Shown here: in pieces, positions 1,235-39,253 of the stretch
Layout of the letters: each line of letters opens with the position of its first letter
How positions within the stretch are numbered: position 1 is the stretch's first letter
Assembly (NCBI GenBank): GCA_002189035.1
Contig: NEEC01000011.1
Coordinates: forward strand, 1,612,001 to 1,676,000
Length of the DNA: 64,000 nt
Direction: 5' to 3'
Source: Utricularia gibba
Taxonomy: Eukaryota > Streptophyta > Magnoliopsida > Lamiales > Lentibulariaceae
Program-made: the position numbers and the translations under genes
Notes under the pieces: model-generated
Told to the model about the DNA's origin: nothing
Databases searched by the model: none
What the model saw: the letters and a program-made list of their open reading frames with translations, nothing else

Positions 1235-2061
1235 CTGAACAATCAAGCATTTCCAAACATATTTGAATTCTTTGTCAATTTTGAGCCCAATAAGTTCTGA
1301 TCTGCTTGTTAATGGGCTACTCCTGGTGTCGTTCCTGGATTCTTTGATATGTTTGTTCTTGTACTTGTTGTAAGGATTTTCAGACCAAGTTACAAAAAGG
1401 TTGTCTCATCAATCTTTTTTTTTTTTTAATGATCATCTGATGCAAGCTTTCCCCTTGCAGGATGAGTTTGTGGTAGGGAAGAAGTGTAGGCTGAAAATGA
1501 CAAGAACAATAATAAGAGAATCAAGAAATCACACCTTTGTTAATACAATATTTTAAAGATATTTCTAACTATTCAAATAGATTAATTATATCAAAATTCA
1601 AGTAGTTCATTATAAAAATAAAGACCTCCTTTTATAGTGTAATAAAAACTGGATAAAATACAATCAATTTCGTAATTTTAGAAAACTTGATCAAATACTC
1701 CATTACCTAGTCTTACATAGGACTAGTAATTCGGTTGTAACAACCTAAAACTAAGCCAAGTCTTAGAGTAATGAATTTCCTCTTAATTTTCTTTTCCAAT
1801 AATTAAATCATTGTAATTAATTATTACATCAAGAAATTGGGCGAGGGATAATTTGGAGTTGTTCACAAGGCGACTTTCAGTAAAAAGATTTCATCCAAGG
1901 TATAAGTTTGAGAAAGCATCTCATATTCACAGACTTACAATTAAGTAACACAGACTCTGAGCTTGTTCTTTGATAGACTGTGGAATATAGAATCTGATGG
2001 TCACTCAGATTACGTGATGGTTCCTACTTTTCCACTATACTACAAAGACTTGGGATCCCTT
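1235..2061 (+). pseudogene. STN7 kinase pseudogene fragment (5' flank, end of exon 1, intron 1, exon 2, start of intron 2)
   Basis: The stretch is homologous to the complete STN7 gene at 20020-21170. Bases 1240-1315 match its upstream region (cf. 20024-20097). They join directly to the last part of exon 1 (1316-1410, encoding ...ATPGV.PGFFDMFVL...), followed by intron 1 with its T tract, exon 2 (1461 onward, 1837-1895) and the start of intron 2 up to the shared GACTTGGGATCC at about 2050. About 680 bases of promoter and exon 1 are missing, joined at a shared TGGGC. Exon 1 also has an in-frame stop (CTT GTT GTA AGG against CTT GTT GAA AGG shows a broken frame nearby). Exon 2 is interrupted by a 347-bp solo LTR. 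It cannot encode a kinase. Confidence 0.85.
1485..1831 (-). mobile_element. Solo LTR (347 bp) inside STN7 fragment exon 2
   Basis: This insertion interrupts the codons GGG AAG AAG ATG GGC of the STN7 fragment. On the minus strand it begins TGATGTAATAA and ends CAGCCTACA, the TG...CA ends of an LTR. It is flanked by AGAAG (1480-1484) and AGAAA (1832-1836), a 5-bp target duplication with one later change. A TATA-like motif, CACTATAAAAGGAGG, lies on the minus strand at about 1627-1641, where an LTR promoter would be. No internal retrotransposon sequence is present, so it fits a solo LTR left by LTR-LTR recombination. The family is unknown; its size is more copia-like. Confidence 0.7.
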
Positions 2062-4098
2062 AAACGTCGTCGTATCTAGCCACATCATCCGCCCCTTGAT
2101 AACTGTTTCTCTCTTTAATTTAACCTGCAACAATGTGCCACATGTATGGAATCATATGTTGTGTGGAAACGGTAATGTGGAAGCCAGGAAACATATGCCT
2201 CCAAGAACCCTTATTCCTCGATCTGTGACGCTACCACCTTTCATTTCGTGAGCTCAGTAAAATCCTGTGCTTGCGCTCATAATCCCAAAGTTGCATGTAT
2301 GAAGTAATCAACACCCTCGGTGCACCATTTGTGAGATGTCACCAACGATTAATATCTCTAACTCATTCCCTCTATTTAGGCTTTTGCAATACAATATGTG
2401 CTAGTTGGATGTTTGCATTATATAAGTATTTAATGCTATGTATCCTTGTCAAAAATATTTCTCCTTTAAAGTACTTCAGAAAACATGCATGTGTTTAGAA
2501 TGAATTCGAATACTACCAAGGAGAACTTGATTATGCAGTCAAACTTATCTGGGAATTCCATTATGCATGGAAAAATTGGGTTAAAATGCTTCTATCCTCT
2601 GCTCGGACCAGGTGCTGCTCATTGATATATGGGTTGTACTTGTGCCGATCAAATGGTGGGCTACGGCAACGTAGCTCGTGGGCAGGGCCGACCCAGTTGG
2701 CGGGTTGGGCCGTAGACTATGGGCTTGGTAAATGGATCTCATGCCCCGAGACACGCAAGATGGGCTGTTGGTTACCCAGAGGAGTCCATCTCGTAGGCCA
2801 GACGATGCAAGATTGGCTGGTCAAACCAACCTGGAACATAATTCATAATGAAAATTAATTGTATTCCCTGGATATCTATCTATGGTTTTGGTTCCCAGGG
2901 CACATGGCTCGTACAATCTTTGCGTCATGGCTAACAGCAGCTCAGGGACAATAAACACAGCTCAAAATAAATAAACGTAAAATAACAATGTTGGTGGTGC
3001 CGAAAATCAGTGTCGTAAAACAGAGAAGGAAAAGGAAAAAAAAAGAAAACAAGAAACACCCGACAACAAGGATCAAAATCAATGAACAACACCCATCTCG
3101 GAGTAAACTGGAAAAATTGGTTTACAAAACCTAAATCAGTCCCATCACCTAAATTAGACCATAAGTAACCAGAGCGGCTAAATCAGCCTACCGATAATAA
3201 ATCAATCTAGAATGACTAGTAAATCTGTTATGTTACGAAAGGCGACAGAAGAGAGATTGTGTCAGGCACTTGCCATTCAAATACAGTTTGAAAGGTAACC
3301 AAGTTACAAAAATTCAAAGCAGTAGTAAGTTATTTGTTGATGGATTCCACCAACAACATAAAGCAAATCCTATCATCCGTGTAAAGTAGCTGACCTTATC
3401 AACATCGATTTGCCAGAGCTTCTCTATGAATAAGATTCATAAAACGCCAGTTCGTGAGAAATTCATGCTCCATTCATTATAATTCTTGTAACTCTTTTTT
3501 TTTTTTTTTCTAGTGAAGCTATTCTCTCATATGAGCTATCTTAGATCCGTGGTTTTCTGTAATGATTGTTTTCACATGAAAAATCTTAGTCTCCTTTACA
3601 CCAGTCACATTAACCCGAAAACTAAATATAAGTCAAGCTTGAAGTCGGCCACTCACTTCACTGACGGATTTCTACCCACAACAAATGAATGACGCGTAGT
3701 CAATCACACTTGAGTTATGTGACAAAAATGGACAAACTTACTTAATCCTTGATTTTTTATATTAAACTTTTGGAATGATGTAGTGATAGAGATGGGGCAG
3801 TGCGCTAATGCCTATCTTCGGCTTTAGTGATGATAGGCAAATGTTGGGATGTAGTTAATTTCTTAAGGGCTCAGGAATGTAATAAAAATATATATCTGTA
3901 GTACGGAATTTAGGGTTGCTGCTTGGCATCGGAATAGATCAAGAGCTCTATAGACACACTTTCAGAAGGATCTCACAAGAAGGATAATGAAGATGCGATT
4001 AATTATTGGGAATACTGATAGATCGGAAGACATGACATGATGAGGATAAAACACTGCGGCAAATTGGAGTGGTTTGGAAGACCAATTGGGGAGTTTAA
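2062..4098. other. Intergenic: end of STN7 fragment and 3' flank of LBD copy 1
   Basis: No gene is recognised. From about 2617 the sequence matches the flank of LBD copy 2 (9085-9400): shared GGGTTGGGCCGTAGACTATGG-like text, GAGACACGC.AGATGGGCTG and the block at 2890-2980. The part at 3690-4098 matches both 9400-9825 and 17460-17817 and is the conserved 3' flank of all three LBD copies. The open frames at 2295-2498 and 2586-2858 have no recognisable domain. Confidence 0.6.
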
Positions 4099-4638
4099 TC
4101 AGGTGGGAGAACTGCTCGGCGAACTCAGGGATGAAGACGCGTCACCTTTCACGCGCCGGCGCTGAACTTTGTTTCCACTGCTGGGTGAAGAAGTGTATCT
4201 TCTGATTTCACTGCCGACGATGGGTAGCACCGGGAACTGCCACTCAGACATGCCATCCTCGGTTACCCGTTTCAGCAGTGGAGTGCCGTCGAGAACCGCT
4301 TGTACGGCATCCTCGCAGCGGTGGCCTTCTCCGGAGGCGTACAGCCCGACGGATCCATCCACTGGGTTGATCACCCGCCCGCAGGCTTCCGACAGCAGTG
4401 AGCGACAAACTTCTGCAATGTAATATTAACATTTTTTTCTAAACAATGAAATCATGAAAACCCTATCATGAAAACACATACCCGGACGATATTCTGCAGG
4501 GGCTTTGCTGAGGAGTTTGACGAGGCCAGTTCGACCGTAAAATTTTGCAAGAAATCGGGTGGCGTTCGCCTGCGCTTCCCTGAGGACGCAACTCTCAGCG
4601 CAGGCTTTGCGAAGAGCCCGGCAGCCATTGCAACTCAT
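4099..4638 (-). CDS. Class II LOB-domain protein, copy 1 (9-codon deletion in the LOB domain)
   Basis: LOB/AS2-domain (LBD) proteins are plant-specific nuclear DNA-binding factors. Class II members (Arabidopsis LBD37-42) are linked to nitrogen and anthocyanin responses. Exon 1 is 4482-4638 and exon 2 is 4099-4412, with a 69-base GT-AG intron in phase 1, giving 156 aa. The start is MSCNGCRALRKAC, the canonical class II N-terminus, and carries the zinc-binding C block CX2CX6CX3C (C3, C6, C13, C17). The GAS-type segment [16 protein letters not shown] and the class II run [19 protein letters not shown] follow. Compared with copy 3, 27 bp are lost in frame just after CVLR, deleting 9 residues between the C block and the GAS block. 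The C-terminus is basic and serine-rich and shorter than in most Arabidopsis class II members. The frame is open, but function is uncertain. Confidence 0.65.
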
Positions 4639-5127
4639 CTCGTAGTATTGCAGAGATGGAGGACACTGAGGCTTTGGGAAGGCAGCAGACCAGCAATTTA
4701 TAAACCAAATTGTTGGCACACAGACAATGCGGGAATATATGTGCCCAATCAACATTTCCTATTTCTTATCGTGTCTTTAAATATTTATTTTAACCAATGA
4801 GAGCTCATCAATTTACAAAAAAAAAATAAAAAATTCAATTAGAACGACCCCATTGAAGTAATTGGTTTCCCCATTTGGAGATACTATTTTATTTCTTTAA
4901 TAAACGTGTGATACAATATATATGTGATTCATATTTCATGTGGATTTTTTTAGAATTCTTTTTTTGTCTATTCTATATATATTTACTAAAAAAATATCAT
5001 TAGGTAAAATGTACTGTTCATTTACCCATGTATGGCTGGCCATTGGTTGGTGGACTAGCTTTGGGTATAAAATCTCAAAAACTAATAAAGAAAATATACA
5101 AGACTCATATATATTGTCTACAAAATT

Positions 5128-5830
5128 AGGGTTACAACTACCCACTACACCAGAGGGTGTTTAGAAAACTACCCACTATGTATTGTATGTATTATCAAAT
5201 TTAGAAAATTACTCATCCTTTAATGAGCATGTATATATTGTATTATAAATATTATAATTTATATTTTTTCATATGCAATAATTTTTTTGAGTAAAATGGT
5301 TTTGTTAATTTTCTATATATTTTTTTCAGAAATTATTTTTGTTTTGTGAAATCTATATTATTAATATTAAAATTATTAAATAAAGATGATTAATTAAAAA
5401 AATGGGTTGGTTTTTATTATTGAAAATTAATAATATTTTTACTTGTTTAAAATATGCTTTTAGAAAGATTTTTTGTTGATTTGTTAGGATGATTAATATT
5501 TTCTTGTAAACAATAATCTGTTTTAACTAATGATTTAATGATATAAAAATTGATTATTCAAATCAATACCTAAAAAATATTTTCGTATCGTGTAACAAAA
5601 TACAATAATCCTTCTTTAATAATTTCAATATGTGAAAAAATATTCAACAAAAACCATTTTACTGAAAATCATTATTACATATAACGAAAATACGAATTAT
5701 AATATTCATAATAAAATATATACATATAAATCAAAAAGATAATTAATTTTCTAAATTTGAAAATCCACATGGGTATTTTTATAAACCCCAATTACTGCTT
5801 TCCGTAATTTTCAAAATAACTCACAAATTT
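5128..5830. mobile_element. MITE-like insertion 1 upstream of LBD copy 1 (about 0.7 kb)
   Basis: The block is absent from the equivalent place in copies 2 and 3, where TCTACAAAAT runs straight on to CCTTATTCGTACAAG. It is extremely AT-rich. Its ends are roughly inverted: the text around CAAATTTAGAAAATTACTCAT (5194-5214) recurs inverted near 5738-5762 as TTAATTTTCTAAATTTG. No coding sequence is visible, which suggests a non-autonomous DNA transposon. The exact ends and target duplication are not resolved. Confidence 0.5.
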
Positions 5831-5865
5831 GTTCTTACACGTTCCATTAACCGCACAGCCTTTTT

Positions 5866-7030
5866 TGGCCAATTTGTTAAAATGCTTGTGTCAGATTAAA
5901 AAATTTGTGAAAATACCTATGGTTTTTTTATCCTTACGTAAATACCTGTAGTTTTATATTTTTTTTGTCAAAATGCCTGTGTTTTTATTATTTTTTAAAA
6001 ATGTTATTATTAAAAATATATGTAGTTTTTTAAATTGAAAACAAATTTTAACCACTTTCACTTTCTTTTTATATTTACTCAATAAAAATTTAGAAATTTG
6101 ACTAAATATTGTAATTACACATTATATATATATATTTTTGTTTAGTGATAAAATACGTTTGAAAAAATATTCGAATTTGTACTAATTTCGAGTTATATAT
6201 TTATTTTTGTAACATTTGAAAATTTATGATATATTAGATTAGTTGTTTACTAAATTTGATAATATTTTGATTTATTAAGAGTTTTTATATATGAATACTT
6301 TTCGATATATTAACTTTTATTTTTTCAAAATACAATAGTTTAAAAACCATACTTTTTTGTTTTGTTGTTTCTAGGTAATTAAAAATGTAATCAGATTTAC
6401 ATTAATAAATTTTTAATATTCATCTAAATTTTAGATTTTTTTATTTCTTTAATCATTATTTTTTCTTTATTAACAAAATTCATCCATTTAAATATTCTTT
6501 TAGACAAATAATTCAGCCCTTTTATTAAAATAAAAGTTTTTATAAAATTATCTATTAATATTTTGTTATTATGAAAAGAATTATATTGTTTTCATCTTTT
6601 TTAACATAAATTCATTGTTATACTTTAATTTTTATTGAAATTAAAAAATAAATTTAAAAGATCAACAATTTACTTTGTATATTAATTCATGAACATTTAA
6701 CTATTACTCTATTAATTTTTTATATTACAATTTTTATTTTCTATTTTTTAGTTATTATTTTTTTGTCATTAAGGGTAATCCATCAAAATAATTTTTTGAT
6801 TAATAATAACTTTGAAATAAACTAACGTGTCTTAATGTATGATTGTATACATTTCAATAAAAATTAAAATGGGTATTAAAACATTAATTTCGAAATGACA
6901 GGCATTTTTAAAAGAAAAAATTGAATCACAGGTATTATGATGAAATCAAAAAAACAACAGTTATTTTGAAAAGAAAATTTTATGATACAATCATTTAATT
7001 AAATTACTGGCCTTTTTTTGACGTCTGACA
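5866..7030. mobile_element. MITE-like or non-autonomous MULE insertion 2 upstream of LBD copy 1 (about 1.15 kb)
   Basis: Copies 2 and 3 read CAGCCTTTTGGGCATTCACCAG at this spot; copy 1 has about 1.15 kb inserted. The ends are imperfect inverted repeats. The left end, GGCCAATTTGTTAAAATGC near 5876, pairs with the complement of the right end, TCATTTAATTAAATTACTGGCC near 6990-7012. Internally, repeats of the type AAAATACCTGTRGTTTT at 5910-5990 recur inverted at 6895-6960. There is no coding content. Long, degenerate inverted repeats suggest a Mutator-like non-autonomous element. Confidence 0.5.
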
Positions 7031-7059
7031 GCATTCACCAGTCATTCTATCGTGATGAG

Positions 7060-7160
7060 TGAAGCAACCAATTGGCTGGTCACGTGGCGGAGGCCCTGCA
7101 CATGTCTGACTGCCGCAGTGGCGTGCAGGGCGCAGCCAATCCATCTTGCCACGTGGGGGA
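7060..7160 (-). promoter_or_regulatory. Paired G-boxes with CCAAT in the LBD copy 1 upstream block
   Basis: CACGTG palindromes lie at 7081-7086 and 7150-7155, with GCAGCCAATCC between them. The same arrangement occurs upstream of copies 2 and 3. G-boxes bind plant bZIP and bHLH factors. Here the pair sits about 2.4 kb from the start codon because of the two insertions, against about 0.5 kb in the other copies. Confidence 0.45.
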
Positions 7161-7360
7161 AGCCCGATCACACAAATCGGACAGCAAGTGTACAAGTGTT
7201 CACCGAGTGACGTAATTCCATGATTTTTGAATTATTTGGGAGGTTTAATTTGAAAAACTGGGCAAATGTTTCCTAGTGGATGGTGAATATGTGGAACAAC
7301 TTGGTGGTTAATTAGATTACCCCCGACCGCTGCAACCTGGCAAATACGATTAGATTGTAT

Positions 7361-9084
7361 TTGACCGGCATATTTAAATATATTTAAAAATATTTGAATA
7401 CAAGTATATATTTGAAATAATAATGGGGGGCGGGGGCTTACACTATTTATAAGTAATTATAAATAGTTAATTTGTTAAATAGGCGTTTTTTCAATTTATA
7501 AGTAGTAAATTATTAGGAGATTTCTTTGTTGTTGTGTTTTGGCAATGAACGGCACCAAACTTGTTACCGTGAATTAATGAAATAAAAATCACAAAGGGTG
7601 TGTTTCTTTAGTTATATTTGTGGGAATTTTCTTAATTGATAAATTAAATAATGTATTTGGTACAGAGATGAGAACTAATGGATATTGTTTATTTGATATT
7701 GAAATGTAAAAGAAGGTTGAATTTGACAATCATAACTCTCAATTGGAATTACTAGTTCAATAATTTTACTAACATTTTCACTTTCAACTTTTATTGAATA
7801 ATTCCATATTTAATTTTTTATTTCTCATTATCCATTCATATATTTTTCATCTACTTGCTTATTGATATCAAGAGATTCTTCGTTCTCCATCCTTCAAGTT
7901 GCCAGAGAATTGGATTTTAGTAGAATATATCAATTTTAAAAAACAAATAATACAACATAAAACTTTATAGCAATGGAGGTGCTTTATATTACTCTTTTTC
8001 ATAATTAACTTTTTAATAAGAAATGGGGGGTTGGTGTGGTATTGATTAAAGGAAGGCTTGTGGAAAAGATGTGAACCCTAGGCCAAATGGGACATCATTT
8101 ATTCGAATTTTAAAATGTATGGTATGATGGATATGTATTTTTTTAATTGTAATAATGTATTTAATTATAATATGAAAATAAATATTTTTTTCCTATTTTC
8201 ATAACCAACTTTAAGTCATGTAAAACACTCTCATTCTACAAGAATCGCAACTAGGTTTAGGGTTTAGATGAACACCATAGAAATTGATTTATGATGATGA
8301 TGAGATGGAAAAGAATTCAGGATTAAATTCAACTACAAAAATCGCATCTACAATATTATATAATAAAGAAAAAGAATGGAAGATGAAATCGACCTCTTCG
8401 ATCGACAATTAGTATGGGATTTTTTTTTTGGAATAAAAGGTAGCAATTGGAAGGTCATTCGATCGTTTTGTAAAAAAGGATGATAAATTAATTTTTTTTC
8501 ACCTATAAATACATTAATCCCATTCCACTGATTTAAATATACCCATCACTTTTCAATTTAATTTATCATTTAATTACATATAAACGTACTTCAAAAAAAT
8601 TACTTAATTTTTGAATCTCATATAACTGGTGGTTGAGGCTGGGTAACCACCCTCTGCTTCTTTGTTTTGGAAAAGGGTCGGGATCTTCAAACCTTCCCTG
8701 TTACTGGTTGAAGGGAGCAATATATACAGATGATGAGTAAGAGCAATTTGGCATAAATGAAAAATAAATGGAAAATTAGGCATTCCAGTAGCTATACTGG
8801 ACCGGCCACACCAAAGGATGGGTTTGGCCGTTGATAGGCCGGATCAGGCAGCAGAAAATTAGGCCGGGCGGGAGAAACCCTGTGACCATGATATGGGCTA
8901 AGGCATTGTTGCGAGGTGTGAGACGCGGGGTGCGTGAGCTAAAGATTCATTGATTTTAAGAATCCAATTTTTAAACTGCGTTAAGAATATGTTATTTTAA
9001 CAATAAAAAAATAAGATTAATTTATCAAATATAAAAATTAACTTATAAATCTCTTACCGAATAGTGCAATGTAGCTTCTTACGC
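7361..9084. other. Intergenic AT-rich region; partly duplicated at 11240-12500
   Basis: No gene is recognised. Bases about 7500-8025 match 11250-11360 plus 12150-12500: shared CACCAAACTTGTTA/CACCCAACTTGTTA, GAGATTCTTCGTTCTC and ATGGAGGTGCTTTATATTAC. The rest is simple AT-rich DNA with a GC-rich patch at 8800-8945 whose origin is unknown. Confidence 0.5.
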
Positions 9085-9825
9085 CTCATAGATAGATGGG
9101 TTTGTACGTGCGCGGACGCATTTGGCGAGTTGGGCCATGAACTATGGGCTAGGTATCCATCTTGTTCAATGGATCTCCTGCCCCGAGACACGCGAGATGG
9201 GCTGTTCTAACGAAGCTGGGGATTAGGGTAAACTATATTCCAGCATTGCGTGCTGATTATATTTTCATAATAAAAATGAATTATCTTCCCTGCATATATG
9301 CCCATGGTTTGGTTCCCAGGGCACATGGTTCGTACAATGTTTTCGTCATGGCTGACAACACTTCAGGGACAATAAATAAACGTAAAATAACAATGCATGG
9401 CTCGTAGTCACTCACAGTTGAGTTATGTGACGAAAATGGACAAACTTAAGTTCACTTTAATCCTTGATTTTTTATAGTAAAGTTTTGGAATGATTATAGT
9501 GAAAGAGATATGACAGTGCGCTGATGCCTATTTTCGGCCTTTAGTGATGATAGGCTTAAATGATGGGATGGAATTAAATTTCAAATGGATCAGGAATAGA
9601 ATAAAAATATATATCTGTAGTACGGAATTTAGGGTTGCTGCTTGGAATCGGAATAGATCAAGAGCCCTTTAGCCACCCTTTCAGAAGGATCTCACAGGAA
9701 GGATAATGAAAATGCGATAAATTATTGGGAATATTGACTGACCGGAACACATCAAGACATGACTAGATGAGGTTAAAACACGGCGGCAACTTCGAGTGGT
9801 TTGCAACACCAATTGGGGAGTTTAA
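9085..9825. other. 3' flank of LBD copy 2 (duplicated block)
   Basis: This is homologous to 2617-4098 and, from about 9345, to 17396-17817: TCATGGCTGACAACACTTC, GGGACAATAAATAAACG, then GTACGGAATTTAGGGTTGC. It marks one end of the duplicated unit. The open frame at 9162-9407 has no recognisable domain. Confidence 0.6.
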
Positions 9826-10390
9826 TCAGGTCGGAGAACTGCTCTGCGGACTTATGGATGAAGACGCGTCACCTTTCACGCGCCGCCGCAGAGTTTTGTT
9901 TCGACTTCTGAATGAAGAATTGTGTCTTCTGATTTCACTGCCGACGAGGGGTACCACCGGGAACTGCCACTCGGACTTGCCATCCTCGGTTACCCGCTTC
10001 AGCAGTGGAGTGCCGTCGAGAACCGCTTGTACGGCATCCTCGCAGTGGCGGCCTTCCCCGGAGGCGTACAGCCCGACAGATCCATCCACTGGGTTGATCA
10101 CCCGCCCGCAGGCTTCCGATAGCAGCGAGCGACAAACTTCTGAACCGTAATATTAGCATTTTTCCTAAACAACGAAATCCTAAAAACCCTGTCATGAAAA
10201 CACATACCTGAACGTGATTCGGCAGGGGCTTGTCTGAGCAGGTTGAGGAGGCCAGTTCGACCGTAGAATTTCGCAAGAAACTGGGTGGCGTTCGCCTGAG
10301 CTTGCGGGATTCTATCGACTGAAGTGCGTCCCTGAGGACGCACCTATCATCGCAGGCTTTGCGGAGAACCCGGCAGCCATTGCAACTCAT
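9826..10390 (-). pseudogene. Class II LOB-domain gene copy 2, frameshifted
   Basis: Exon 1 is 10208-10390 and exon 2 is 9826-10139, with a 68-base intron. The ATG opens [17 protein letters not shown], with all four C-block cysteines, and reads correctly to SIES. Near 10304 one base is missing compared with copy 3 (GAATCCCGCAAGCTC against GAATCCCCAGAAGCTC). The frame then runs out of register, while the correct continuation [17 protein letters not shown] is found in another frame. Exon 2 is intact ([16 protein letters not shown]... to stop) and the splice sites are intact. Exon 1 is 183 bases against 184 in copy 3, so the coding length is no longer a multiple of three. A sequencing error is the alternative explanation. 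Confidence 0.8.
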
Positions 10391-10799
10391 CTTTCAGTAT
10401 TGGAGAGATCGAGGACAGTGACGCTTTGGGAAGGCAGCAGAGAATTTATAAACCAAATTGGTGGCACACAGTGCAGAAATAAATGAATGTCCAATCAACG
10501 CTGCGTTTTTATTATCGTGTATTTAAAAATTATTTTAACCCATCAATTTTTGTAAAAAAAAAAATCATTAAAACAATCCCATTGAAGTAACTGGTTTCCT
10601 GATTGGGAGTAAATGAGATACAAATTATTTTTATTTAATAAACATGATTTTAAAAAGATTTATAAAAATTATTCTTTCATGTAAAGTTTTTAAATTAATT
10701 AAAATTTAATTCTTTTTTATTTATTCTAAATATATTAATAAAAAAGATAAAAATAATAAAGAAAATATAAAATACTCATAAATTTGATCAGTCTACAAA

Positions 10800-10990
10800 A
10801 TTTGACCCTTATTCGTACAAGTTCCATTAACCAGCACAGCCTTTTGGGCATTCACCAGTCGGCTGGTCACGTGGGCGAGGCGGTGCTGGCCTCCTTCATG
10901 TCTGACTGAAGGAGTGGTGTGCAGAGCGCAGCCAATCCATTTAGTCACGTGGGCGAAGCTGGATCTCACAAATCGGGCATCAAGTGTACG
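10800..10990 (-). promoter_or_regulatory. Paired G-boxes with CCAAT upstream of LBD copy 2
   Basis: CACGTG occurs at 10868-10873 and 10946-10951, with GCAGCCAATCC between, about 0.5 kb upstream of the start codon at 10390. The whole block (10815-11010) is conserved in the three copies despite AT-rich surroundings, consistent with promoter elements of the minus-strand gene. Function is inferred from motif and conservation only. Confidence 0.45.
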
Positions 10991-11361
10991 AGTGTTGAAC
11001 GAGTGACGTAGTCCCATGAATTTTGAATTATTTGAGAGTTTTAATTTCAAAAACAAAGGAAGTGGTTCGTGGTGGATGGTGAATGTGTTGAGCAACTTGT
11101 TGGTCAATTAGATTATCCCAACCACTGCAACCTGTCTACACATCCCGGGAAATACCATTAGATTGTATTTGACTGGTATATTTAAATGTATTAAAGAATA
11201 TTTTAATAGAAAATATATATGAAATAACAATGGGGCGTTTTACACTATTTATAATGGCACCCAACTTGTTAACGTTAATTAATGAAACAAAAATCACAAG
11301 GGTATGTTTCTTGATTAATATTTGTAGGAATTTGATTAATTGATAAATATTACTAAATAGT

Positions 11362-12149
11362 GTTATGACTTGATCATAGCACTAATTTCTTGGTGAAGAT
11401 ATCATTTCTATCTTCTTTACTTTATGAATGATTTGAATGTAGCAAAACCATTGTTTTTGTATATACTGTTGGGTTATTTTCTAAGTTTTGTACAAAGGGA
11501 TTGACCCATTAATATTTGCATTATTTTATCCTAACATCCCAACTTTAAGGAATGAGTCATCAGAAATCAAATCAGTTTTTACAATTATACCCTATTGCAA
11601 TTTCTCTAGACCTAAGGAGTGAGCATCTGGTGAACAATTATGTTCGTTTGCTTGTGCAAATTGCAAAATCATGAATTCTATTCAAAAAGAAGAAAATTTT
11701 AGAGCAATTTTGAATTCATTGATCAAATTGTATCTCAAAAATTTATGAAGGGATTTTCAACAACATCATATTTAAGAGAGAGATCAATTTAGAAAAAAAA
11801 AAGAAGAGAAAAAAAAGAAGGAAAAAATAAGATGAGAAGAAGAGAGAGAAATGGCTAAAGAATTGGAGCAAATCCACAAAACTGGAAGATAATGAGTTTT
11901 TTGGAGTAAGAAAATCAAAAAACAAGCATACTAGAATTGTTCGATGGATGTTCACTCATTATTACTCAAAATATGGAGACTCCAGCCGAAATTCCCACCT
12001 GTCCCAAGCTCCTACCGCATTACAACATGAGAAAAAGTCCACATGATTGCGTAAGCTTGCTGAAATTAGTGGATCACTTGCGCAAGTTTACTGACTCGCC
12101 TATATTCAAGTATTGAGCGATCCACTTTTCATTTCACCGTCATATGACA
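11362..12149. mobile_element. Unclassified insertion of about 0.79 kb in the duplicated block
   Basis: The equivalent sequence in the first unit (7560-7700) continues without this block: ATAAATTAAATAATG...CTAATGGATATTG, against ATTACTAAATAGTG [insert] CAACTAATGATATTG. The insert is flanked by GTTATGAC on the left and CATATGAC on the right, a possible short target duplication. It includes a purine-rich stretch (11780-11860) that makes a spurious minus-strand frame at 11743-11955. No domain is recognised. It could be a solo LTR. Confidence 0.4.
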
Positions 12150-13079: not shown

Positions 13080-13649
13080 CAATTAGGAAAAAAAACCTTA
13101 AAATTGGTGTAATTATACAAAAAAACATTAAATTTTGTTATATTTATCATTTATTATGTTAATATTAATTTTTATATAGAATAAATGATTGAACTAAGGT
13201 GATACACTTCAAAATCATATGAATTTTGGCTTCAATCTGTTTCCCATTTTCGGGTCAAGCATCCCCAAACATATTCGAATTCTTTATTAGCTTTGAGTCC
13301 AATAAATTCTGATCTGTTTATTAATGGGCTTGCAAGTGGGCTTCTATTACAAGTCTACAGTCATTTTGGGCCAAGATGGTGGCCCCCATTTGCCAGCCCC
13401 ATTAAGATGCATATATGGGGCAAATTAATTGTCTTACTAACTATTGATAAGATAATTCAAAATCATATCCAACGTTATATTGTACTGTTCCACATCATTT
13501 CCACATCATCATTTCTTGTTTAATTTTTACACAATAATTCAATCACCATTGTATATTTATATTTTGTATAAAAATTCAAATAAATAATATATTATATTTA
13601 TTTATTTTTATATTATATTAAAATTAATCTATTCAATGTAATAATACAT

Positions 13650-14098
13650 ACGAGACACTGACATATTCAGATTTTAACATTAAAATTCTAAAAAGTTAGT
13701 GTAACATTATTTAATTTATCTTTTTTCTAATTTAAAATTCAAAAACGAATCAATACTACACAAATGATACTAGCATGTTCAGATTTTAGCATTAAAATTC
13801 TTGAAAAAATGTGGTATAACACTAAATTAATTTGTTTTTTTCAATTCAAAATTAAAAAATAAAATAATAATATACATGTAATAATGACATGTTCAGATTT
13901 TAACATTAAAATTCTTAAAAAGTTATGTATAATATTAAATTAATTTATCTTTTTTCCAATTCAAAATTCAAAAACAAAGAAATAATACACATGTGATATT
14001 GACATATTCAAATTTTAATATTTAAATTCTGAAAAAGTTTGGTATAATATTAAATTCATTTATCTTTTTTTTCGATTCAAAATTCAAAAACGAAATAT
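13650..14098. repeat. Tandem array, four units of 112-115 bp
   Basis: Successive units start with CATRTTCARATTTTARCATT at 13662, 13774, 13888 and 14003, spaced 112, 114 and 115 bases. Each contains TTAATTTATCTTTTTT and ATTCAAAATTCAAAAACGAA near its end. The array lies subterminally in the MULE, where tandem arrays are common in plant elements. Confidence 0.85.
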
Positions 14099-14801
14099 AT
14101 ATTAAGATACATATCTCATATCATCATTTTTTCTCATTTTCTTGCTTTTACAATTTCAATGGCTTCCTCTTCAATTAAGATCCGATTGTACTAGGGAGTC
14201 AACTTGTTTTATGGAAACAATTATATGTGCTATGACTCATCACCGCGATTTTTTGCTTTGATTGTTCGGGATAGCTCAATTTCCTTGCTACTGTCGTTGA
14301 TTTACGAAGTTATGCATGTATCTTCAACTAAGTATTCTATTAGAATCATTGTCAATTATATTACTATGGATCCAAAAATGTGTTTTAAAAGGTATTGCCA
14401 TCCTCTTGATTAAACATATGATAGTTTATCTTTGATTTTCAATCAAAGTGGTATGGTTTCAAGTGTTGATATGTATATTAGTGCAACTCCAAACTTAATG
14501 AATTTGATCATTCAACAATATACTGATATGTAAAATTTTTTTCCAAATAACATTTATTATTATTAGTTTTAAATTACATTAAAGATATTTTTTTGAATTC
14601 ATATGATTAAATTGTGCTAATGGTATATTATATGTTTAATTTCTAGTTAACTTTGGATAAACATCAACCTTTCATAATAATCCATGCACTTCACCAGCAT
14701 ATCACAATCCTTCATCACCAGAATTATCTTGTGATGAAAACATATTATGGGATTCATATCATTTATGTAATGAAAATGTTATTGAGCAAGCTGAAAATTA
14801 A

Positions 14802-16614
14802 ATGATGCAAGAAGTAATTCCATCTCCACTTTCTTCAAGTGATGATGATGAAGAACAAATAGAAGCCAAGTTTTATAAAAGCGATGTGACAATGGAAATT
14901 TCAACAGCAATTGAATTTGAGAAGAATTTAAACTTTTTTTATGGAAAAAGTGGTGATTCATGCAAAGGAGTTTTCTTTAAAGATAAAACTTCAATGATAG
15001 AAGTATTGAATTATTATTATATCATAAAGTTGAAAAGTCTTTCCATGTTGAGAAGAGCAACAACTAACAATATGAAATAAACTGTATAATCGAAATGCAA
15101 CGCCGCCATGTGAATGGCGTGTTAGAATATGGAATATCAGTGTCACTCAGTTTTGGACTGTGACACAATACGAGAACCCTCATACTTGCTTTTCTAATAG
15201 TTTCAAAAGTGCTAGAAATAATTGCATTATTAGCAAATTTGTATCTCTTCATATCATGAACAAGGTGAAAGCGAATCTAAAGATACGTGTTTCTGATATC
15301 ATTGATTATATTGATGAAATTTATAATTTTAAGATATTATATAAACTTGGATGGACTACTGTTAGGCATGCTATCATGCATATGTATGGTACTTTGGAGG
15401 AATCAGTGACAAAACTCTCTTGTTATTTATTATCTATTAAAAAATACAACCTAGATAATTTATTTTTATTATTTTACAAATATTGATGTTTGTTTATTAA
15501 CTATATTTGAATATGATAATCTTCATTCTCATGATGGCATGCCAATGCTACATCATGTATTTTGGGCTTTTGTATCATGTGCCCATGCTCTTAGGTATTG
15601 TCGTTCAATTATTACTGTTGATGGAACACATCTATATGGAAGATATAGATATCAATCTCTAATAGCATGCACACTTGATGGCGATTGCACTATAATTCCA
15701 CTTACATTTGCTATTGTTGATGAAGAATCTTATAAATACTGCTATTGGTTTTTTAACCTTTTGGTTAAGCATATCGTGAAAGGACGTCGTATTTATCTAA
15801 TAACTGATCGTGGTGTAGTATTGCTATTTGCAATTAAAGATATGTCTGCTTTCAATGAACTTATAGGAGATTACATATTTTGTATGCAACATCTACTTAC
15901 AAATTTCATGTCTCATTTCAGGTTGAAACACTTGATTAATTTATTTTGGGAAGCTGCCTTCAGTTCAAAAACATAAAAGTTTTAGACAATTATGCAAAAA
16001 ATCATAAATAAGAATGAGGCAACATTTGAATATTTCCATGAAATCGATACAAAGCGATGAATATTATCATATGATGATGACATTAGGTAACTCTAAATAG
16101 AATAATTTTATTCATATTATTATTATATTTATCTTATATTTCTTATTTTTACAGAAGTGGTGTACATACCACAAGTATCTTTTAATCATTGAATAGTGTT
16201 TTATGTAGGGTACGAAGATTACCTCCAAAAGCTCTTGTTAAGGCCATTTTCGAGTGATATGTTAAGATTTTCACCAATAGTAAAGTGAATATGGATTTAC
16301 TCATGAAAATGAGTCAATTATTTACTCCATATTTGCTAACTGTTTATAAGAGATGTGATGACAAATCAACCAACTACAGGACCAAGAAATACAACGCAGA
16401 GAAAATGATTGCCACTGTGATATCTCGGAGCAAAAGTTCTAAAACTTGTTTGTTTGACAGATTTCACATGCATTTGTGGAAAGTGACAGCAAAAAATTAT
16501 TCTATATTCAAATGCTATTCAGGTAAGAATTATCTTCTGATGTATCATGTTATTTGTAATATCATAACAATTGTTAATTTTATTTCTCTTCTAAGTGTAC
16601 AACAATTTCAATAA
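14802..16614 (+). pseudogene. MULE transposase pseudogene (plant MuDR type)
   Basis: The order of MuDR transposase parts is visible across several frames. At 14802-15080 there is an acidic N-terminal region ending in a F.DKTSM.EVL..Y segment. Next is the DNA-binding-like region 15085-15486 (W..RIWN...TQYENPHTC, then GWTTVRHAIMHMYG...EESVTKL). At 15539-15976 is the MULE catalytic core, with VDGTHLYGRY (first Asp), LTFAIVDEES, LITDR (second Asp) and CMQHL. At 16285-16614 there is a C-terminal part. Frame changes and stops between the pieces make it non-functional. Confidence 0.85.
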
Positions 16615-17395
16615 AGATGCAAGTTCTTATATTTAAAAATATTATCAAGTAAAGATTCTTGCGAAAATATACAAAAGACAATTTAATCCACCAACTCCTT
16701 AAAGTGGATGAAGTGCATCTCCATTTGATCTTCTTCACAATCCAGCAAAAAAAGTGAATATCAGAGTTCGTGCTAGATCAACAACATTTTTAAGCAGCTT
16801 AACTCATATATATTCGAAGAGAAGATCAAGAGTTGATTAATTTCAATTTTAGATATTTTCGAGAATATGTTTTAGAGACTTTGAGATTTTAATTCAAAAA
16901 ATATTGCTTATGCATTTATTATATATTTTATTACATAATTTTTGCATGTATTTAATTGTTTATGTTTTAATTTTTTGGTTAATATAAATATGTAATATAA
17001 TTGTATTGTAGTATATTATATTTAAATTTTTCAATATAAAATATGATTAAATATATATATTTTTAGAAAATTCTGTATTTATATGAATTTTGGTGCAAAA
17101 AATAAATAATAAATGATGATGTGGAAATGATATACTACATTATAAGATAAAGTTGACTATGATATGGAATTATCGGTCTAATGGTTGGTGAGATAAAGAA
17201 TTTACTTTGTATATGTGTGCACCACTCTACTCTTGTGGTCTGTATTTTCTTCTCATCCGGAACAAATTTGTTCCACAAATTGTTTTTTTAGGAAAATATT
17301 GAAATTTGTTCTCGGTGCTGGTGGTGAAATTTTCAATATTGTCAATGATCCCTTTCTGGGTGTTGGAGTTGGGTGAAATTTTCAATATTGTCAAT

Positions 17396-17817
17396 TTGCG
17401 TCATGGGTGACAACACTTCGGGGACAATAAATAAACGTAAAATAGCAATGCATGACACGTAGTCACTCACAGTAAAGTTGTGTGACAAAAATGGACAAAC
17501 TTAGGTTCACTTTAATCCTTTATTTTTTATATTAACATTTTGGAATTATGTAGTGATAGAGATGGGGGAGTGCGGTGATGCCTATTTTCGGCCTTTAGTG
17601 ATGATAGGCCTAAATGGTGGGATGGAATTAATTTTCTAAAGGGTCAGGAATAGAATAAAAATATATATCTGTAGTACGGAAATTAGGGTTGCAGCATGGC
17701 ATCGGAAATAGATCAAGAGCTCTTTAGCTACACTTTCAGAAGGATTTCGCATGGAGATGCGAGGTTAAAGCACCGCGGAAACTTCTAGTGCTTTGCAAGA
17801 CCAACTGGGGAGTTTAA
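17396..17817. other. 3' flank of LBD copy 3 (duplicated block)
   Basis: The block repeats the sequence at 9345-9825 and 3694-4098 (ACAATAAATAAACGTAAAATAGC, TAGTCACTCACAG, CTGTAGTACGGAA). It starts directly at the broken edge of the STN7 exon 1 remnant, marking the duplication junction. Confidence 0.6.
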
Positions 17818-18377
17818 TCAGGTCGGAGAACTGCTCGGCAAACTTCTGGATGCGTCATCTTTCACGCGCCGCCGCTGAGTTTTGTTTCGATTTCCGGATG
17901 AAGAATTGTGTCTTCTGATTTCACTGCCCACGAGGGGCAGAACCGGGAACTGCCACTCAGACCTGCCATCCTCGGTTACGCGCTTCAGCAGTGGAGTGCC
18001 GTTGAGAACATCTTGTACGGCATCCTCGCAGCGGCGGCCTTCCCCGGAGGCGTACAGCCCGACGGATCCATCCACTGGGTTGATCACCCGCCCGCAGGCT
18101 TCCGATAGCAGCGAGCGACAAACTTCTGAACCGTAATATTAGCATTTTTCCTAAACAACGAAATCCTAAGAACCCTGTCATGAAAACACATACCTGAACG
18201 TGATTCGGCAGGGGCTTGGCTGAGGAGGTTAATGAGGCCGGTTCGACCGTAGAATTTCACAAGAAATTGGGTGGCGTTCGCCTGAGCTTCTGGGGATTCT
18301 ATTGACTGAAGTGCGTCCCTGAGGACGCACCTATCATCGCAGGCTTTGCGGAGAACCCGGCAGCCATTGCAACTCAT
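17818..18377 (-). CDS. Class II LOB-domain protein, copy 3 (intact)
   Basis: Exon 1 is 18194-18377 and exon 2 is 17818-18125, joined by a 68-base GT-AG intron in phase 1, giving 163 aa. The LOB domain shows the C block CX2CX6CX3C (C3, C6, C13, C17 in [17 protein letters not shown]), the linker [16 protein letters not shown], the GAS-like [11 protein letters not shown] and the class II signature [20 protein letters not shown]. No class I leucine-zipper-like coiled coil is present, as expected for class II. The C-terminal tail is basic and Ser-rich ([11 protein letters not shown]...) and short for the class. This is presumably a nuclear transcription factor. It is divergent from the intact STN7, 2.0 kb away. 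It is the only copy with a complete LOB domain, although codon-level constraint cannot be tested here. Confidence 0.75.
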
Positions 18378-18779
18378 CTCGCAGTATTGGAGAGATGGAG
18401 GACACTGACGCTTTGGGAAAGCAGTAGACCAGGAATTTATAATCCAAATCGGTGACACACAGTGCAGAAATAAATGAATGTCCAATCAACATTGCGTTTT
18501 TTATTATCATGTCTTTAAAAATTATTTTAACCCATCAATTTTTGTAAAAAAAAAAAAACAATTCAAACGATCCCATTGAAGTAATTGGTTTCTTGATTCG
18601 GAGTATAGGAAGATACAATCATATTTATTTAATAAACGTGATTTAAAAAATATTTACACAAATTATTCTTTCATGTAAAGCTTTTTAATTAATTCTTTTT
18701 ATTTATTCTAAATATATTTATCAGAAAAAAGCTAAAAATAATAAAGAAAATATACAATACTCATAAATTTGGTCTTCAA

Positions 18780-18990
18780 AATTGGACCCTTATTCGTACA
18801 AGTTCCAGTAACCCGCACAGCCTTTTGGGCATTCACCAGTCGGCTGGTCAAGTGGGCGAGGCCCTGCTCATGTCTGATTGGGAGTGGCGTGCAGGGCGCA
18901 GCCAATCCATTTAGTCACGTGGGAGAAGCCCGATCTCACAAATCGGGCATCAAGTGTTCAACGAGTGACGTAGCATGATTTTTTGAATTA
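18780..18990 (-). promoter_or_regulatory. Conserved upstream block of LBD copy 3; one G-box intact, one mutated
   Basis: The block matches 10800-11010. The distal motif of the pair (relative to the other copies) reads CAAGTG at 18849-18854 instead of CACGTG, while CACGTG is kept at 18916-18921, and GCAGCCAATCC lies between. It is about 0.5 kb from the start at 18377. Confidence 0.45.
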
Positions 18991-20410
18991 TTTGAGAGGT
19001 TTAATTTGGAAAACTAAGGAACTGTTTCGTGGTGTATCTTGATGTGCTGAGCAACTAGTTGGTTAATTATATTCTAATTATTTTTTAATGTAAGCAAAAA
19101 AATTAAAGAATAAATGTTTCAAATTAGCATATAACTCAAAATTAAAGGATATCTTTTATAAATCTTATTTGATTTAAAAAAATGTTATATTTTGAATACT
19201 AAACATACACTATGTTTATATAAATGAAAAGAGAAATGTATGTGAATTGAGATTACAATACCAAGCATTTTAAAATATTTGAATTTCCCATCATATATGA
19301 ACCCGACTATTATTTTATTCAATTTCAATGGACATGTACGCATTCTAATGAAGCCTTGGTCTTAAATGGGAACACTAATTATTGATTATTATTCGTTCCA
19401 TTGCGGATAGAGGCTTCACGTGTCCAAGTTCTCGATACGAGAGATGCAAATGAATGTAATGTTTTATTCTCTTCTTCTTTGATATTTTTTGTTTTACATA
19501 ATCAATCATCATGGTTTTATTGTGAAGATCCTTTTACTTAAAAACAATATTATGAAGATCCTTTTATTTAAGAATATATATTCCTTTGTGCATAACCAAT
19601 TTGAAATACTGTCATTATATTTTTTATTTTTTATTTTTCCTCAATTACTCAATGTCCTCAGCAAGTTTCCTATCCGACTATTGGTATACACCCAAATTTG
19701 ACTATTAATATCAAATGTTATGACTCGTGTTCTGGTTGTATGATATTATTTATTTTAAATATTCAATCCTAATTTTCATTGAATTTACTTAATACTCCTA
19801 AAACTACAATATCTTTTTTATATTTATTAATTATTATGTTAATATTAACTTTTTTAAAATCTAGGCTTTACTCAGACGCCTTAAATGATTTGACTAGGGT
19901 CCTAGACTTCAAGATCATATAAATTTTGGCTTCAATTCGACTCCAACTCGAAATTTGATCTCCAGCTGGTTATGTCAGATTTCGGGTCAAACCTGGTTGA
20001 CATTTCTTGCTTCCCATTTCCGGGTCAAGCATTTCCAAACATGTTTGAATTCTTCGTCAGCTTCGAGCCCAATAACTTTTGATCTGCTTATTAATGGGCC
20101 TTAAAGTGGGCTTTTACGGGAATTCATCAAGCGTATGCCATTTGGGCCAGGAGGGTGGACCCAGTTTGCGGGACCCATTAAGATGCATACGTGTGCACTA
20201 CTCTACTCTTGTGGTCTGTATTTTCTTCTCATCCGAAACAAATTTGTTCCACAAATTGTTTTTTAGAAAAATTATTGAAATTTCACAACCACGAAGGGAG
20301 GAGTCAGGAGAGACGTAGAATCAACGGTGAAGAACGGGGGTGGATGCTCATTCACCAGGATGGCTACTGATTCAGTTTGAAATCCGATTTTCAACGACAG
20401 TTTCCTGGAG
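18991..20410. other. LBD copy 3 / STN7 divergent intergenic region
   Basis: AT-rich to about 19790, then the conserved STN7 upstream block. TGGGCC and TGGGCT (site II-like) motifs cluster at 20090-20160, and a pyrimidine-rich segment (20195-20235) precedes the start codon. Remnant copies of this block at 1240 and 13080 define it as part of the duplicated unit. The minus and plus genes may share it as a bidirectional promoter, which is inference. Confidence 0.5.
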
Positions 20411-23244
20411 ATGGCTGCTGCGGTTAGCACCGCGTCTAGTATTGGATTAAGCGGAGTGCATAAGCAGAAGCTTCACTCATTCGACTCAAAATTGGTGTCC
20501 TCCTTTCTGGGAAAGAAGCCGAAGCTCACCCCTGCCTCTGATTTCAGAACCCACAAAGCATTACTCCAATTTGGACACAAAAAGTTGGCGGTTCTCGCTG
20601 CTGGTGGTGAAATTTTCAATATTGTCAATGATCTCTTTCTGGGTGTTGGAGTTGGGCTCCCGTGTACAGTTATGGAGTGTGGAGATATAATTTACAGAAG
20701 TACACTTCCAAGAAATAATGGGCTTACTCTTACTATTCCTGGTATAATTTTGGCTGTTGGAACTGTCTCTTATCTGTGGGCTACTCCTGGTGTCGCTCCT
20801 GGATTCTACGATATGTTTGTTCTTGCACTTGTTGAAAGGATTTTCAGGCCAAGTTACAAAAAGGTTGTCTCATCAATCTCTCTTTTTTTTTTTAATGCTC
20901 ATCTTATGCGAGTTTTTCCCTTGTAGGATGACTTTGTGGTAGGGAAGAAGATGGGCGAGGGATCATTTGGAGTTGTTCACAAGGCTGCTTTCAGTAAAAA
21001 GGTTTCATCCAAGGTATAAGTTCAAGAAAGCATCTCATATTCACAGACTTACAATTAAGTAATACAGAGTATGAGCTTCTTCTTTGATGGATTGTGGTAT
21101 ATAGAATCTGATGCTGCCTCAGATTACGTGATGGTTCATACTTTTCCACTATTCTACAATGACTTGGGATCCAAATTGTGTTATGTGGGAAAAATAAACT
21201 TAATCAAGGCAATTTGATTGTGCTGTAATGTAACAATAGGACGGTGAGTTGGTCTTGAAGAAGGCTACAGAGTTCGGTGCAGTGGAGATTTGGATGAATG
21301 AGCGTGTGAGAAGAGCTTGTGCTAGTAGCTGTGCTGAATTTGTTTACGGTTTTCTCGAGGTTTGTTGTTCCATATACTAAGGAATTGAAGTTGGCCAGCT
21401 GAATCAGCTCCAAACTGGAGGATTTTCCTCTCCTTCAAACTTAAATGGTTTTGTTAACAACTGCAGGGTTCTGGAAAGAAGGGACCCGAGTATTGGCTGA
21501 TATGGAAGTATGAAGGGGAATTGACGCTCTCTGATCTACTCCAGAGCAAGGAATTTCCGTACAATGTGTGTGAGAAATCGTGAACACTGAGCCTTTTCTT
21601 CACACCACATGGATTTTAGATTTCACATATGACTGCATATAGAATGTATATGCAACTCAATATAAAATACAAAATATAAAATCTACTCTAAAAAGAGCCT
21701 TCAATCTTGAAATGGGAGGAGCTTCATAGATTGCTCATTTTCACCAGGTGGAGGAAAAGATCCTTGGAAAAGTTCAGGATTTGCCAAAGGGTCTGGAAAG
21801 AGAGAACAGAATTATACAGACTGTTTTGAGGCAACTCTTATTTGCATTGGATGGTCTGCACTCTACTGGGATTGTTCACAGAGACATCAAGCCCCAGAAT
21901 ATTATATTCGCTGAAGGTAATGCCGGAACATCCTCCTTTTATAGTTCGCACCACCATGCCTACAATGCGTTCGCAGAGATTCTTTTACATCTCCATCTTC
22001 ACTGCTGAGAAGTTGGAAGCAGCTCACTCGTTCACATCACTGTTCCAGCGGTACTTGAGGCATCTATCTACATATTCACTTTGCTTGTACTTTTAGGTTC
22101 TCGGTCGTTCAAAATCATTGACCTTGGAGGTGCTGCGGATTTGAGAGTTGGAATCAATTACATTCCCAAAGAGTTTCTATTGGATCCCAGGTACTTTGTG
22201 TGTTACGGAGCTTTCTTGCACCCTGTATATTACATGATGATCCAAGAATTTTACTTGCATTTGGTCTTCTTGTTCAGATATGCTGCACCAGAGCAGTACA
22301 TTATGAGCACTCAGACTCCATCTGCTCCCTCGGCACCCGTTGCAACTGCACTTTCTCCTGTTCTTTGGCAGGTTTTCTATCAGTTTTTATCAGATCCCTT
22401 CACTTCGCTGATCCTGATCTGGATATCATCTCATTCCTATTTTACTCTTACTGCTCTAACAGCTCAATCTTCCCGACAGATTCGATATATACAGCACCGG
22501 TTTGATATTCCTACAAATGGTAAAGCCTATTATTACATCTCAAGCCCTCCCATTAAACATCTGCTTCTCTTCATGTTGACTCTCTGTATCCACAGGCATT
22601 CCCATCACTGCGATCCGACAATGCCCTCATACAATTTAACCGCCAACTGAAGAAATACGATTTTAATCTACGATCATGGCGAGAAACGGTGGAGCCTCGT
22701 GCCAATGCGGAACTCAAACGGGGTTTTGAGTTGCTGGACTTGGACGGAGGAATTGGATGGGAGCTCTTAACGTCTATGGTTCGATACAAAGCCCGTCAAA
22801 GAATCAGTGCCAAAGGAGCTCTTGCTCATCCCTACTTCGACAAAGAAGGCCTCTTGGCCTTATCTTTCATGCAAAATCTACGCCTGCAGCTCTTCCGAGC
22901 AACACAGCAGGATTACGGAGAAGCAGCCAAGTGGATAACCAATCTCATGGCGAAATCAGGAACCGCGAAAGAGGGTGGCTTCACGGAAGCTCAACTCCTA
23001 GAACTCCGGGTACGAACCACCAACTCCCTTCCTATAAATGATATAACTTACCTCAGCATTTCACCAAACACCTGATATGCAGGAGATCAAACCCCCAAAG
23101 AAGTCGAAACTTCAACGAATCGCAGTCGTATCAGCTCTCCGGATGCAGCGGAAGATCATTCGCACCATCAATGAAACCGTTGATGAGCTTAGCCGGCCGC
23201 AGAAGAGCGTTTGGTGGAACAAATGGATTCCAAAGGAGGAGTAA
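20411..23244 (+). CDS. STN7: Serine/threonine kinase STN7, chloroplast (state transitions)
   Basis: STN7 is the thylakoid kinase that phosphorylates LHCII and drives state transitions when the plastoquinone pool is reduced. Exons are 20411-20863, 20927-21013, 21240-21359, 21467-21565, 21748-21916, 22097-22190, 22278-22371, 22463-22519, 22596-23009 and 23083-23244. All junctions are GT-AG and in register, giving 582 aa. The protein has an N-terminal transit-peptide-like region, the lumenal redox cysteine pair (C85, C90 in [11 protein letters not shown]) and one membrane span (about 104-128). The kinase domain has the glycine loop GEGSFGVV (about 161-168), a lysine in LVLKKA (about 187), HRDIKPQN (about 297) and IIDLGGAAD (about 316-324, with the family's DLG in place of DFG). 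The C-terminus is [10 protein letters not shown]. The length fits Arabidopsis STN7 (562 aa). This is the only complete copy in the window. Confidence 0.95.
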
Positions 23245-23927
23245 CTCAACTTTGTAGATATCAACACGAACTCTGCGTCGTCAAAGTTGATCGTACTTAT
23301 CATAAGATAATGCACAACACAAATATCGCTGGATGGGCCTCCTTAACTCATTCCTAGGCCTGGGCCAATTCAGTAACAGCACTCGAGCAGCGGCCCGGCC
23401 CAAACTAAGAGCCTGGAAATTCGAGAATGTTCACGGCCAGCTTTCGTATTCTGGGCCTGTTGTGTGCTATTCATTTATTAAAATGATATTGTTTAATTTT
23501 TGAAAATTCATTTATCAAATTTTGTAATTAACTTCAAAATTATTGAATTTATTAAATATTTTTTAAAATATAAAATAAGAAATTATTTATAAAACTATAC
23601 TATTTATTTCTTGTTATTCTAAAAATATATTTACTAAATTTTACAATATTTATTTTATTTTATTAAATTTTATTATATAATTTTAAATTATACCACGAAA
23701 TATTTTTATAATCTTAGATTTTATTCATATAATTTTAAAACTGATTCTATTATACATAATGTTAAGTATAGCTTAAAGTTACAGAACAAGCTCTATGTTT
23801 CCATAAATGAAATTATTGTTGTATGTGCAATATAAATAACAATATTAAAAATGAGACATAAAGTATATAAAAAAAATAATTCGATTCAAAATATGTTTTC
23901 AATAGAAAAAAATCAATTATCACACTA

Positions 23928-39088: not shown

Positions 39089-39253
39089 TCAAAACCTGCA
39101 AGAAGTCCCGAGCCTCGGCCGCTGCTTCTGGCCGATGGATGAAGCTTTGCGCTTGGCGAACGCCGGAGTGAGCAGGTCGGCGAACTTGTCTAGAAACAAC
39201 CCCCATTCGCCTTCGTCCATGTCCGCCAGCTTCACGAAGGTGGTGCTAGGGGG
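39089..39253 (-). pseudogene. Out-of-frame conserved C-terminus of the PI4K-gamma gene
   Basis: In the frame offset from the main reading frame the minus strand encodes STTFVKLADMDEGEW, then GLFLDKFADLLTPAFAKRK, and ends LGTSCRF before a TGA at 39089-39091. This is the invariant C-terminal segment of plant type II PI4K-gamma proteins. It follows the main frame with no room for an intron, so a one-base deletion (5 G instead of 6 on the plus strand) or a sequencing error in the homopolymer is the simplest cause. Confidence 0.8.

Follow-up and report, generated by a model that had tools for sequence, protein, structure and literature searches.

A class II LBD gene of Utricularia gibba has been amplified into a tandem array of five units (U1-U5) that lie in a single orientation and have common flanks. 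One intact STN7 kinase gene stands at the right end of the array, so that a whole STN7 borders the last unit only. The remaining four units consist of an LBD gene and its upstream block, with STN7 content reaching at most up to intron 2. We consider it probable that the LBD gene was amplified locally, that the duplicated block ended inside (or before) STN7 and that none of the extra units ever lost a functional kinase gene.

The window is the 64,000-nucleotide stretch C255:1612001-1676000. Window coordinates are used here, and negative numbers denote positions upstream of it. Self-alignment and tblastn of the spacers covered 116 kb without N, including 52 kb fetched upstream, and the genome searched was the 100.09-Mb assembly (516 contigs).

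A self dot-plot confirmed the tandem LBD array with common flanks that had been described in an earlier note on this DNA, and showed it to be larger than stated there. The count of three LBD copies is correct for the window itself but not for the array, as the left edge of the window cuts through it and leaves U1 and U2 upstream. Self-comparison of the three copies within the window gave 78-88% DNA identity across about 1.3 kb (E = 0). As the note had also claimed, the flanking blocks (3' flank, G-box block and STN7 5' flank) recur in unchanged order among the units, which is visible in the self-alignment. The copies are thus adjacent, run in one orientation, have common flanks and are monophyletic. 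Looking for copies without common flanks or for dispersed ones, by self dot-plot and in the homeologous region, left tandem duplication standing. In every LBD gene of the array, an intron of 57-69 bp separates two exons:

-12302..-12868, minus strand: LBD of U1, intact, 165 aa (C255:1599075-1600048 region; from the genome search and fetched upstream DNA)
-5191..-5738, minus strand: LBD of U2, frameshift in the tail only, beyond the LOB domain (C255:1606204-1607153 region; from the genome search and fetched upstream DNA)
4099..4638, minus strand: LBD of U3, exons 4638-4482 and 4412-4099, open, with an in-frame 9-residue deletion in the LOB domain (Pfam PF03195, E = 4.6e-17)
9826..10390, minus strand: LBD of U4, pseudogene, 1-base deletion in exon 1 that causes a frameshift
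17818..18377, minus strand: LBD of U5, exons 18377-18194 and 18125-17818, intact, 163 aa (Pfam PF03195, E = 5.6e-19)

The frame status of the window copies is as previously reported: U5 is open, U3 is open minus nine residues (DALQSIESP) and U4 is frameshifted. Within the array, pairwise Ks is 0.10-0.27 and Ka/Ks 0.14-0.43 over aligned LOB codons. Synonymous change exceeds replacement change among the copies (U1-U5, p = 0.006). The LBD copies show weak purifying selection; two are intact, and three are altered to differing degrees. Among the Arabidopsis class II genes (LBD37-42), the array LBD presumably resembles LBD40-42. U1 and U5 carry the CX2CX6CX3C motif at residue 3 and lack the LX6LX3LX6L zipper pattern, which assigns them to class II by the published definition (CX2CX6CX3C present and, unlike in class I, no complete LX6LX3LX6L; PMC8446603, PMC5698300).

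Genome-wide, there are about 20 class II LBD loci, 15 of them dispersed in addition to the array of five, and partly of a derived RKAC type. Published counts are 6 in Arabidopsis and tomato, 7 in grape and 9 in pepper, with 4-9 in the listed diploids (PMC8446603, PMC5698300); compared with the species in these two studies, the class II set found here is unusually large. A related class II gene lies at C255:1563765-1564337, 48 kb upstream of the window, in the opposite orientation to the array. Its neighbourhood (-41.9..-40.8 kb) matches regions of contigs C3 and C142 that also bear class II LBD genes, and more distant class II copies are found on other contigs.

The kinase gene at the right end of the array has the following structure:

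20411..23244, plus strand: STN7 kinase gene, intact, 10 exons with GT-AG borders, 582 aa

The protein contains a protein kinase domain (Pkinase, E = 1.5e-21), and its closest solved relative is MsStt7d 4ix3 (E = 1.7e-35; next best 1.2e-10). In STN7/Stt7 kinases, whose characteristic activity is the phosphorylation of light-harvesting complex II, N-terminal CX4C cysteines are important; here the pair is present as CTVMEC at residue 85, together with a glycine-rich loop, HRDIKPQN and DLG. A genome search found one STN7 locus in the assembly, although weak matches or N runs elsewhere may hide more. A paralogue on contig C2 with 40-48% identity is STN8-like, an identity inferred from that percentage.

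The earlier note described the LBD copies as alternating with STN7 remnants. This holds in two of the four spacers, U2/U3 (1313-1484 with 1831-2058) and U4/U5 (17308-17373), and fails in U1/U2 and U3/U4, where tblastn with the whole 582-aa STN7 found no STN7 piece. All spacer pieces derive from the 5' flank, the first two exons and intron 1, together with part of intron 2. With the same query over the 116 kb, the spacer matches were limited to residues 61-180 (1313-1399, 1831-1899 and 17308-17373). Sensitive tblastn over the 116 kb found no trace of residues 181-582, that is exons 3-10, in any spacer, and a genome-wide DNA search agrees. Nor was the STN7 3' flank found in any spacer. Two pairs of matches, -18851..-18463 with 23454-23794 and -15842..-15713 with 25770-25896, had been considered as a copy of this flank upstream of U1; they were dropped when the genome search showed them to be dispersed repeats.

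The pieces and the DNA between them are arranged as follows:

1243..1484, plus strand: STN7 stub between U2 and U3, in which the exon 1 end, intron 1 and exon 2 start follow directly on 75 bp of 5' flank
1485..1831: LTR-like insert of about 347 bp, solo-LTR-like, splitting STN7 exon 2 of the U2 stub
1831..2058, plus strand: STN7 stub, remainder of exon 2 and most of intron 2, 91% to 20945-21172; homology ends at 2058
2059..2195: transition from the STN7 intron 2 stub to the array left flank; 2061-2195 matches the U1 left flank at 87.5%
13119..13417, plus strand: what remains of the U4 STN7 5' flank on the left side of the MULE, ending with target-site copy GCATATATG (13409-13417)
13418..17208: MULE DNA transposon, 3.79 kb, within the STN7 5' flank of U4
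17209..17373, plus strand: STN7 stub of U4, with target-site copy GTATATGTG (17209-17217), 5' flank and 66 bp of exon 1
17374..17395: filler at the U4/U5 junction, about 22 bp long, with the neighbouring STN7 exon 1 fragment as its template

In the U2 stub, 1243-1317 corresponds to 20025-20099 at 89% and 1313-1484 to 20777-20950 at 91%. The internal deletion between them, of about 0.68 kb, joins two copies of TGGGC and so lies at a microhomology. A 1.34-kb repeat is present inside the 5' flank of the stub (-100..1242). The LTR-like insert is a member of a dispersed repeat family with TG...CA ends and the flanks AGAAG/AGAAA; its 3' end (CA at 1831) is inferred, as the repeat-family query ended at 1828.

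At the junction beyond this stub, the sequence beginning with 2061 matches the U1 left flank from -16654 onwards. The joint 2058|2061 therefore connects the equivalent of 21172, the most 3' STN7 base in any extra unit, to that of -16654, the most leftward flank base in any unit. In its layout it looks like a tandem-duplication break, and a later deletion is also possible. The U1 left flank gives short matches to contig C328 in collinear order and thus looks ancestral.

In U4, the exon 1 part of the stub is preceded by an internal deletion of about 307 bp. The MULE has terminal inverted repeats with arms of about 132 bp that are 74% complementary, a coding sequence divided among several ORFs and a transposase domain just above the threshold (PF10551, E = 1.8e-06, 28.7 bits vs a cut-off of 27.6). 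Its 9-bp target-site duplication reads GCATATATG/GTATATGTG vs GCATACGTG in the intact locus, so the two copies have diverged. About ten near-full-length relatives of this element occur genome-wide, with 78-86% identity. At the U4/U5 junction, 17372-17395 is 100% identical to 20606-20629, which is the basis for calling the filler a templated insertion.

A homeologous region, C328:2012001-2042000, is collinear with the array region on both sides, with RAV, LBD and TCP in equal order. The left-hand anchor is a B3/AP2 (RAV-type) gene at -20.5..-19.5 kb, which matches C328 2033.1-2034.1 kb; the name RAV rests on the translated sequence and on our own reading of it. The right-hand anchor (26.1-27.6 kb) matches C328 2023.8-2025.2 kb:

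26076..27560, plus strand: TCP transcription factor gene (PF03634, E = 2.2e-37)

Between the anchors C328 has a single LBD, at 2027094-2027562, and the interval from anchor to anchor is about 8 kb there vs about 46 kb in C255. On the protein tree the array copies form one clade with support 93/89 (four usable rows), and their Ks to the C328 LBD is 0.69-1.08 vs 0.10-0.27 inside the array. Taken together, the single C328 gene, the monophyly of the array and the higher Ks to C328 suggest that one LBD is most likely the ancestral state. They also indicate that the amplification is private to the C255 region and would be younger than its split from the C328 region. The region between RAV and TCP on C328 gave no credible STN7 match, and STN7 was most likely lost from it. 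In Arabidopsis, STN7 (At1g68830), RAV2/TEM2 (At1g68840) and TCP12 (At1g68800) are, we assume, close neighbours; if so, a RAV-STN7-TCP block would be old.

The array appears to have grown in steps, as the earlier note proposed. Its observation that window copies 2 and 3 have nearly identical introns is borne out, with 1/68 sites differing between U4 and U5, and copy 1 (U3) is more distant at 13-15%. In non-coding DNA, U1-U3 diverge from one another by 0.10-0.11 and U4 from U5 by 0.12, whereas the two groups are 0.18-0.21 apart. These two subfamilies, {U1,U2,U3} and {U4,U5}, together with the single-unit homeologous region, support stepwise tandem duplication. Only the 5' half of the unit shows this grouping: U4+U5 is supported by 52/67 informative sites in the upstream part, exon 1 and intron, and by 7/24 in exon 2 and the 3' flank (halves differ, p = 4e-5). 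The units are thus mosaics, a pattern that would be expected from unequal crossing-over or gene conversion. The U2 stub differs from the intact STN7 by 10.6% in introns and 5' flank, vs 24.5% for the LBD upstream part of the same unit pair (p = 9e-7). The lower value suggests that the oldest LBD split had already happened when the stub was captured or homogenised.

From these data the following course of events may be proposed. One class II LBD between the RAV-type gene and STN7 would have undergone local tandem amplification, with at least one duplication breakpoint in STN7 intron 2, joined to DNA left of the LBD. Extra copies would then have been born with a 5' stub of STN7 or without any STN7. 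Unequal crossing-over and/or gene conversion may have added further units, reshuffled them and produced the mosaic LBD copies. The stubs were presumably eroded by end-joining deletions, one with templated filler and one at short microhomology, and by transposable-element insertions.

The earlier note read the array instead as a duplicated LBD/STN7 pair that lost STN7 in every extra unit, through dosage sensitivity or chance. In full, this rival has complete pairs copied at each step and the kinase gene of every additional unit removed afterwards, either by selection on the dosage of this thylakoid protein or neutrally in a deletion-prone genome. Spacer deletions with end-joining signatures are indeed present. 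Moreover, there is one STN7 locus found, plus the STN8-like gene on C2, and none in the homeologous region, which suggests that a single copy was regained after an older duplication. However, no trace of exons 3-10 or of the 3' flank remains in any of the four spacers, although the LBD flanks of those units persist at 78-88%, and one junction links STN7 intron 2 straight to the array left flank. Whole-pair duplication would require several deletions, each taking the identical 3' part. It is simpler to assume, from the lack of anything 3' of intron 2 and from this junction, that a complete STN7 was never part of the extra units, and we regard loss from complete pairs as unlikely. Of the two causes that the note offered, chance comes closer, and dosage-sensitive loss finds no support. 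Resistance of genes to duplication has been proposed as a concept (PMC4092219). With one locus found genome-wide, a general resistance of STN7 is possible; the array itself is no evidence for it or for dosage selection on STN7.

Some observations count against a block that ended within STN7 from the beginning. The U1/U2 and U3/U4 spacers contain no STN7 piece, and the original break is not seen there; the 2058|2061 joint could be a later deletion instead of the first break; and, judging by divergence, the U2 stub appears younger than the LBD split. A close variant, possible though rather unlikely in our view, places LBD-only duplications with a right edge upstream of STN7 first; two units would later have gained STN7 5' sequence from the right end of the array through unequal crossing-over or gene conversion. 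It would account for U1 and U3, which lack STN7 sequence and whose upstream blocks stop short of the STN7 5' flank, for a U2 stub about half as diverged as the LBD upstream part, and for U4, where the DNA to the right of the MULE resembles the intact STN7 more closely than the DNA to its left (p = 3e-4). On the other hand, this variant requires more events; the contrast in U4 may equally reflect constraint on the 5' UTR/exon in the intact copy or extra mutation beside a transposable element; and the spacers have lost much other DNA, so the absence from U1 and U3 is weak evidence. Tandem arrays are also generally prone to misassembly. Here the units differ by 10-25% in non-coding DNA, with distinct insertions and frame damage, and both flanks are collinear with another contig. 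We rejected an assembly artefact on the grounds of unit divergence and give it practically no credence.

The upstream blocks of the LBD genes carry paired G-boxes, which in U1 and U2 lie at -8903/-8815 and -2832/-2744. In the window the blocks are:

7031..7659: upstream block of U3, paired G-boxes at 7081 and 7150; no STN7 sequence beyond
10854..11348: upstream block of U4, paired G-boxes at 10868 and 10946
18835..19073: upstream block of U5, in which the first G-box is mutated (CAAGTG) and the second, at 18916, is intact

The paired sites are 70-90 bp apart in all five units, about 0.5 to 3.4 kb from the LBD start, and 9/10 of them are intact. This retention of the cores is suggestive. Each unit keeps at least one of its paired G-boxes, so the copies may form a co-regulated class II LBD dosage array, kept for useful extra LBD dosage; we find this idea quite improbable. 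Two related proposals were abandoned. The block as a whole is not strongly conserved DNA, with an inter-subfamily divergence of 0.19 vs 0.22-0.27 just upstream of the LBD, and the short cores alone stand out. A bidirectional LBD/STN7 promoter finds no support either, as the intact pair is 2.0 kb apart and the G-box blocks persist without STN7.

To the right of the array, three further features were noted by eye. A single-exon ORF on the minus strand (39232-41028, 598 aa) is phosphatidylinositol 4-kinase gamma-like with a ubiquitin-like part. At 44885-50135 there is what looks like a degraded Copia-type retrotransposon, with integrase- and reverse-transcriptase-like ORFs and short repeats at its two ends that are nearly identical. 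A second MULE-like transposase region, distinct from the MULE of the array, spans 54365-57294 (ORFs of 263, 177 and 327 aa).

What looks like repeated loss of a neighbouring gene in a tandem array can stem from a duplication breakpoint and not from selection. Before a missing neighbour is tallied as a gene lost after tandem duplication, one should establish whether the complete gene ever belonged to the duplicated block. In the present case, part of the order of events can be read from the single-copy homeologous region, from the junctions and from the layers of insertions.

The array is a known kind of event, an ordinary and well-preserved case of tandem-array evolution. Breakpoints of tandem duplications can yield partial (truncated) gene duplicates. 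The present case is alike in that the block probably ended inside a neighbour gene and gave rise to stubs that would never have encoded a protein. It differs in that the stubs stand in two spacers and were later damaged by end-joining deletions and by the insertion of a MULE and an LTR-like element, in layers that can still be read. The intact STN7 resembles the STN7/Stt7 state-transition kinases in its CX4C pair, glycine-rich loop, HRDIKPQN and DLG, and shows nothing unusual compared with them. Templated insertion is a known mark of alternative end joining (PMC7407515). The U4/U5 junction, with its deletion and filler of about 22 bp of local origin, is similar, as is the U2 stub with its deletion at a 5-bp microhomology; in our case such repair is deduced from the scars. 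Finally, the tandem cluster of subclass If LBD genes on grapevine chromosome 13 (PMC5698300) is likewise a lineage-specific tandem expansion of LBD genes. The grapevine cluster belongs to class I, whereas the array described here is class II and its duplicated block probably cut a neighbouring kinase gene.
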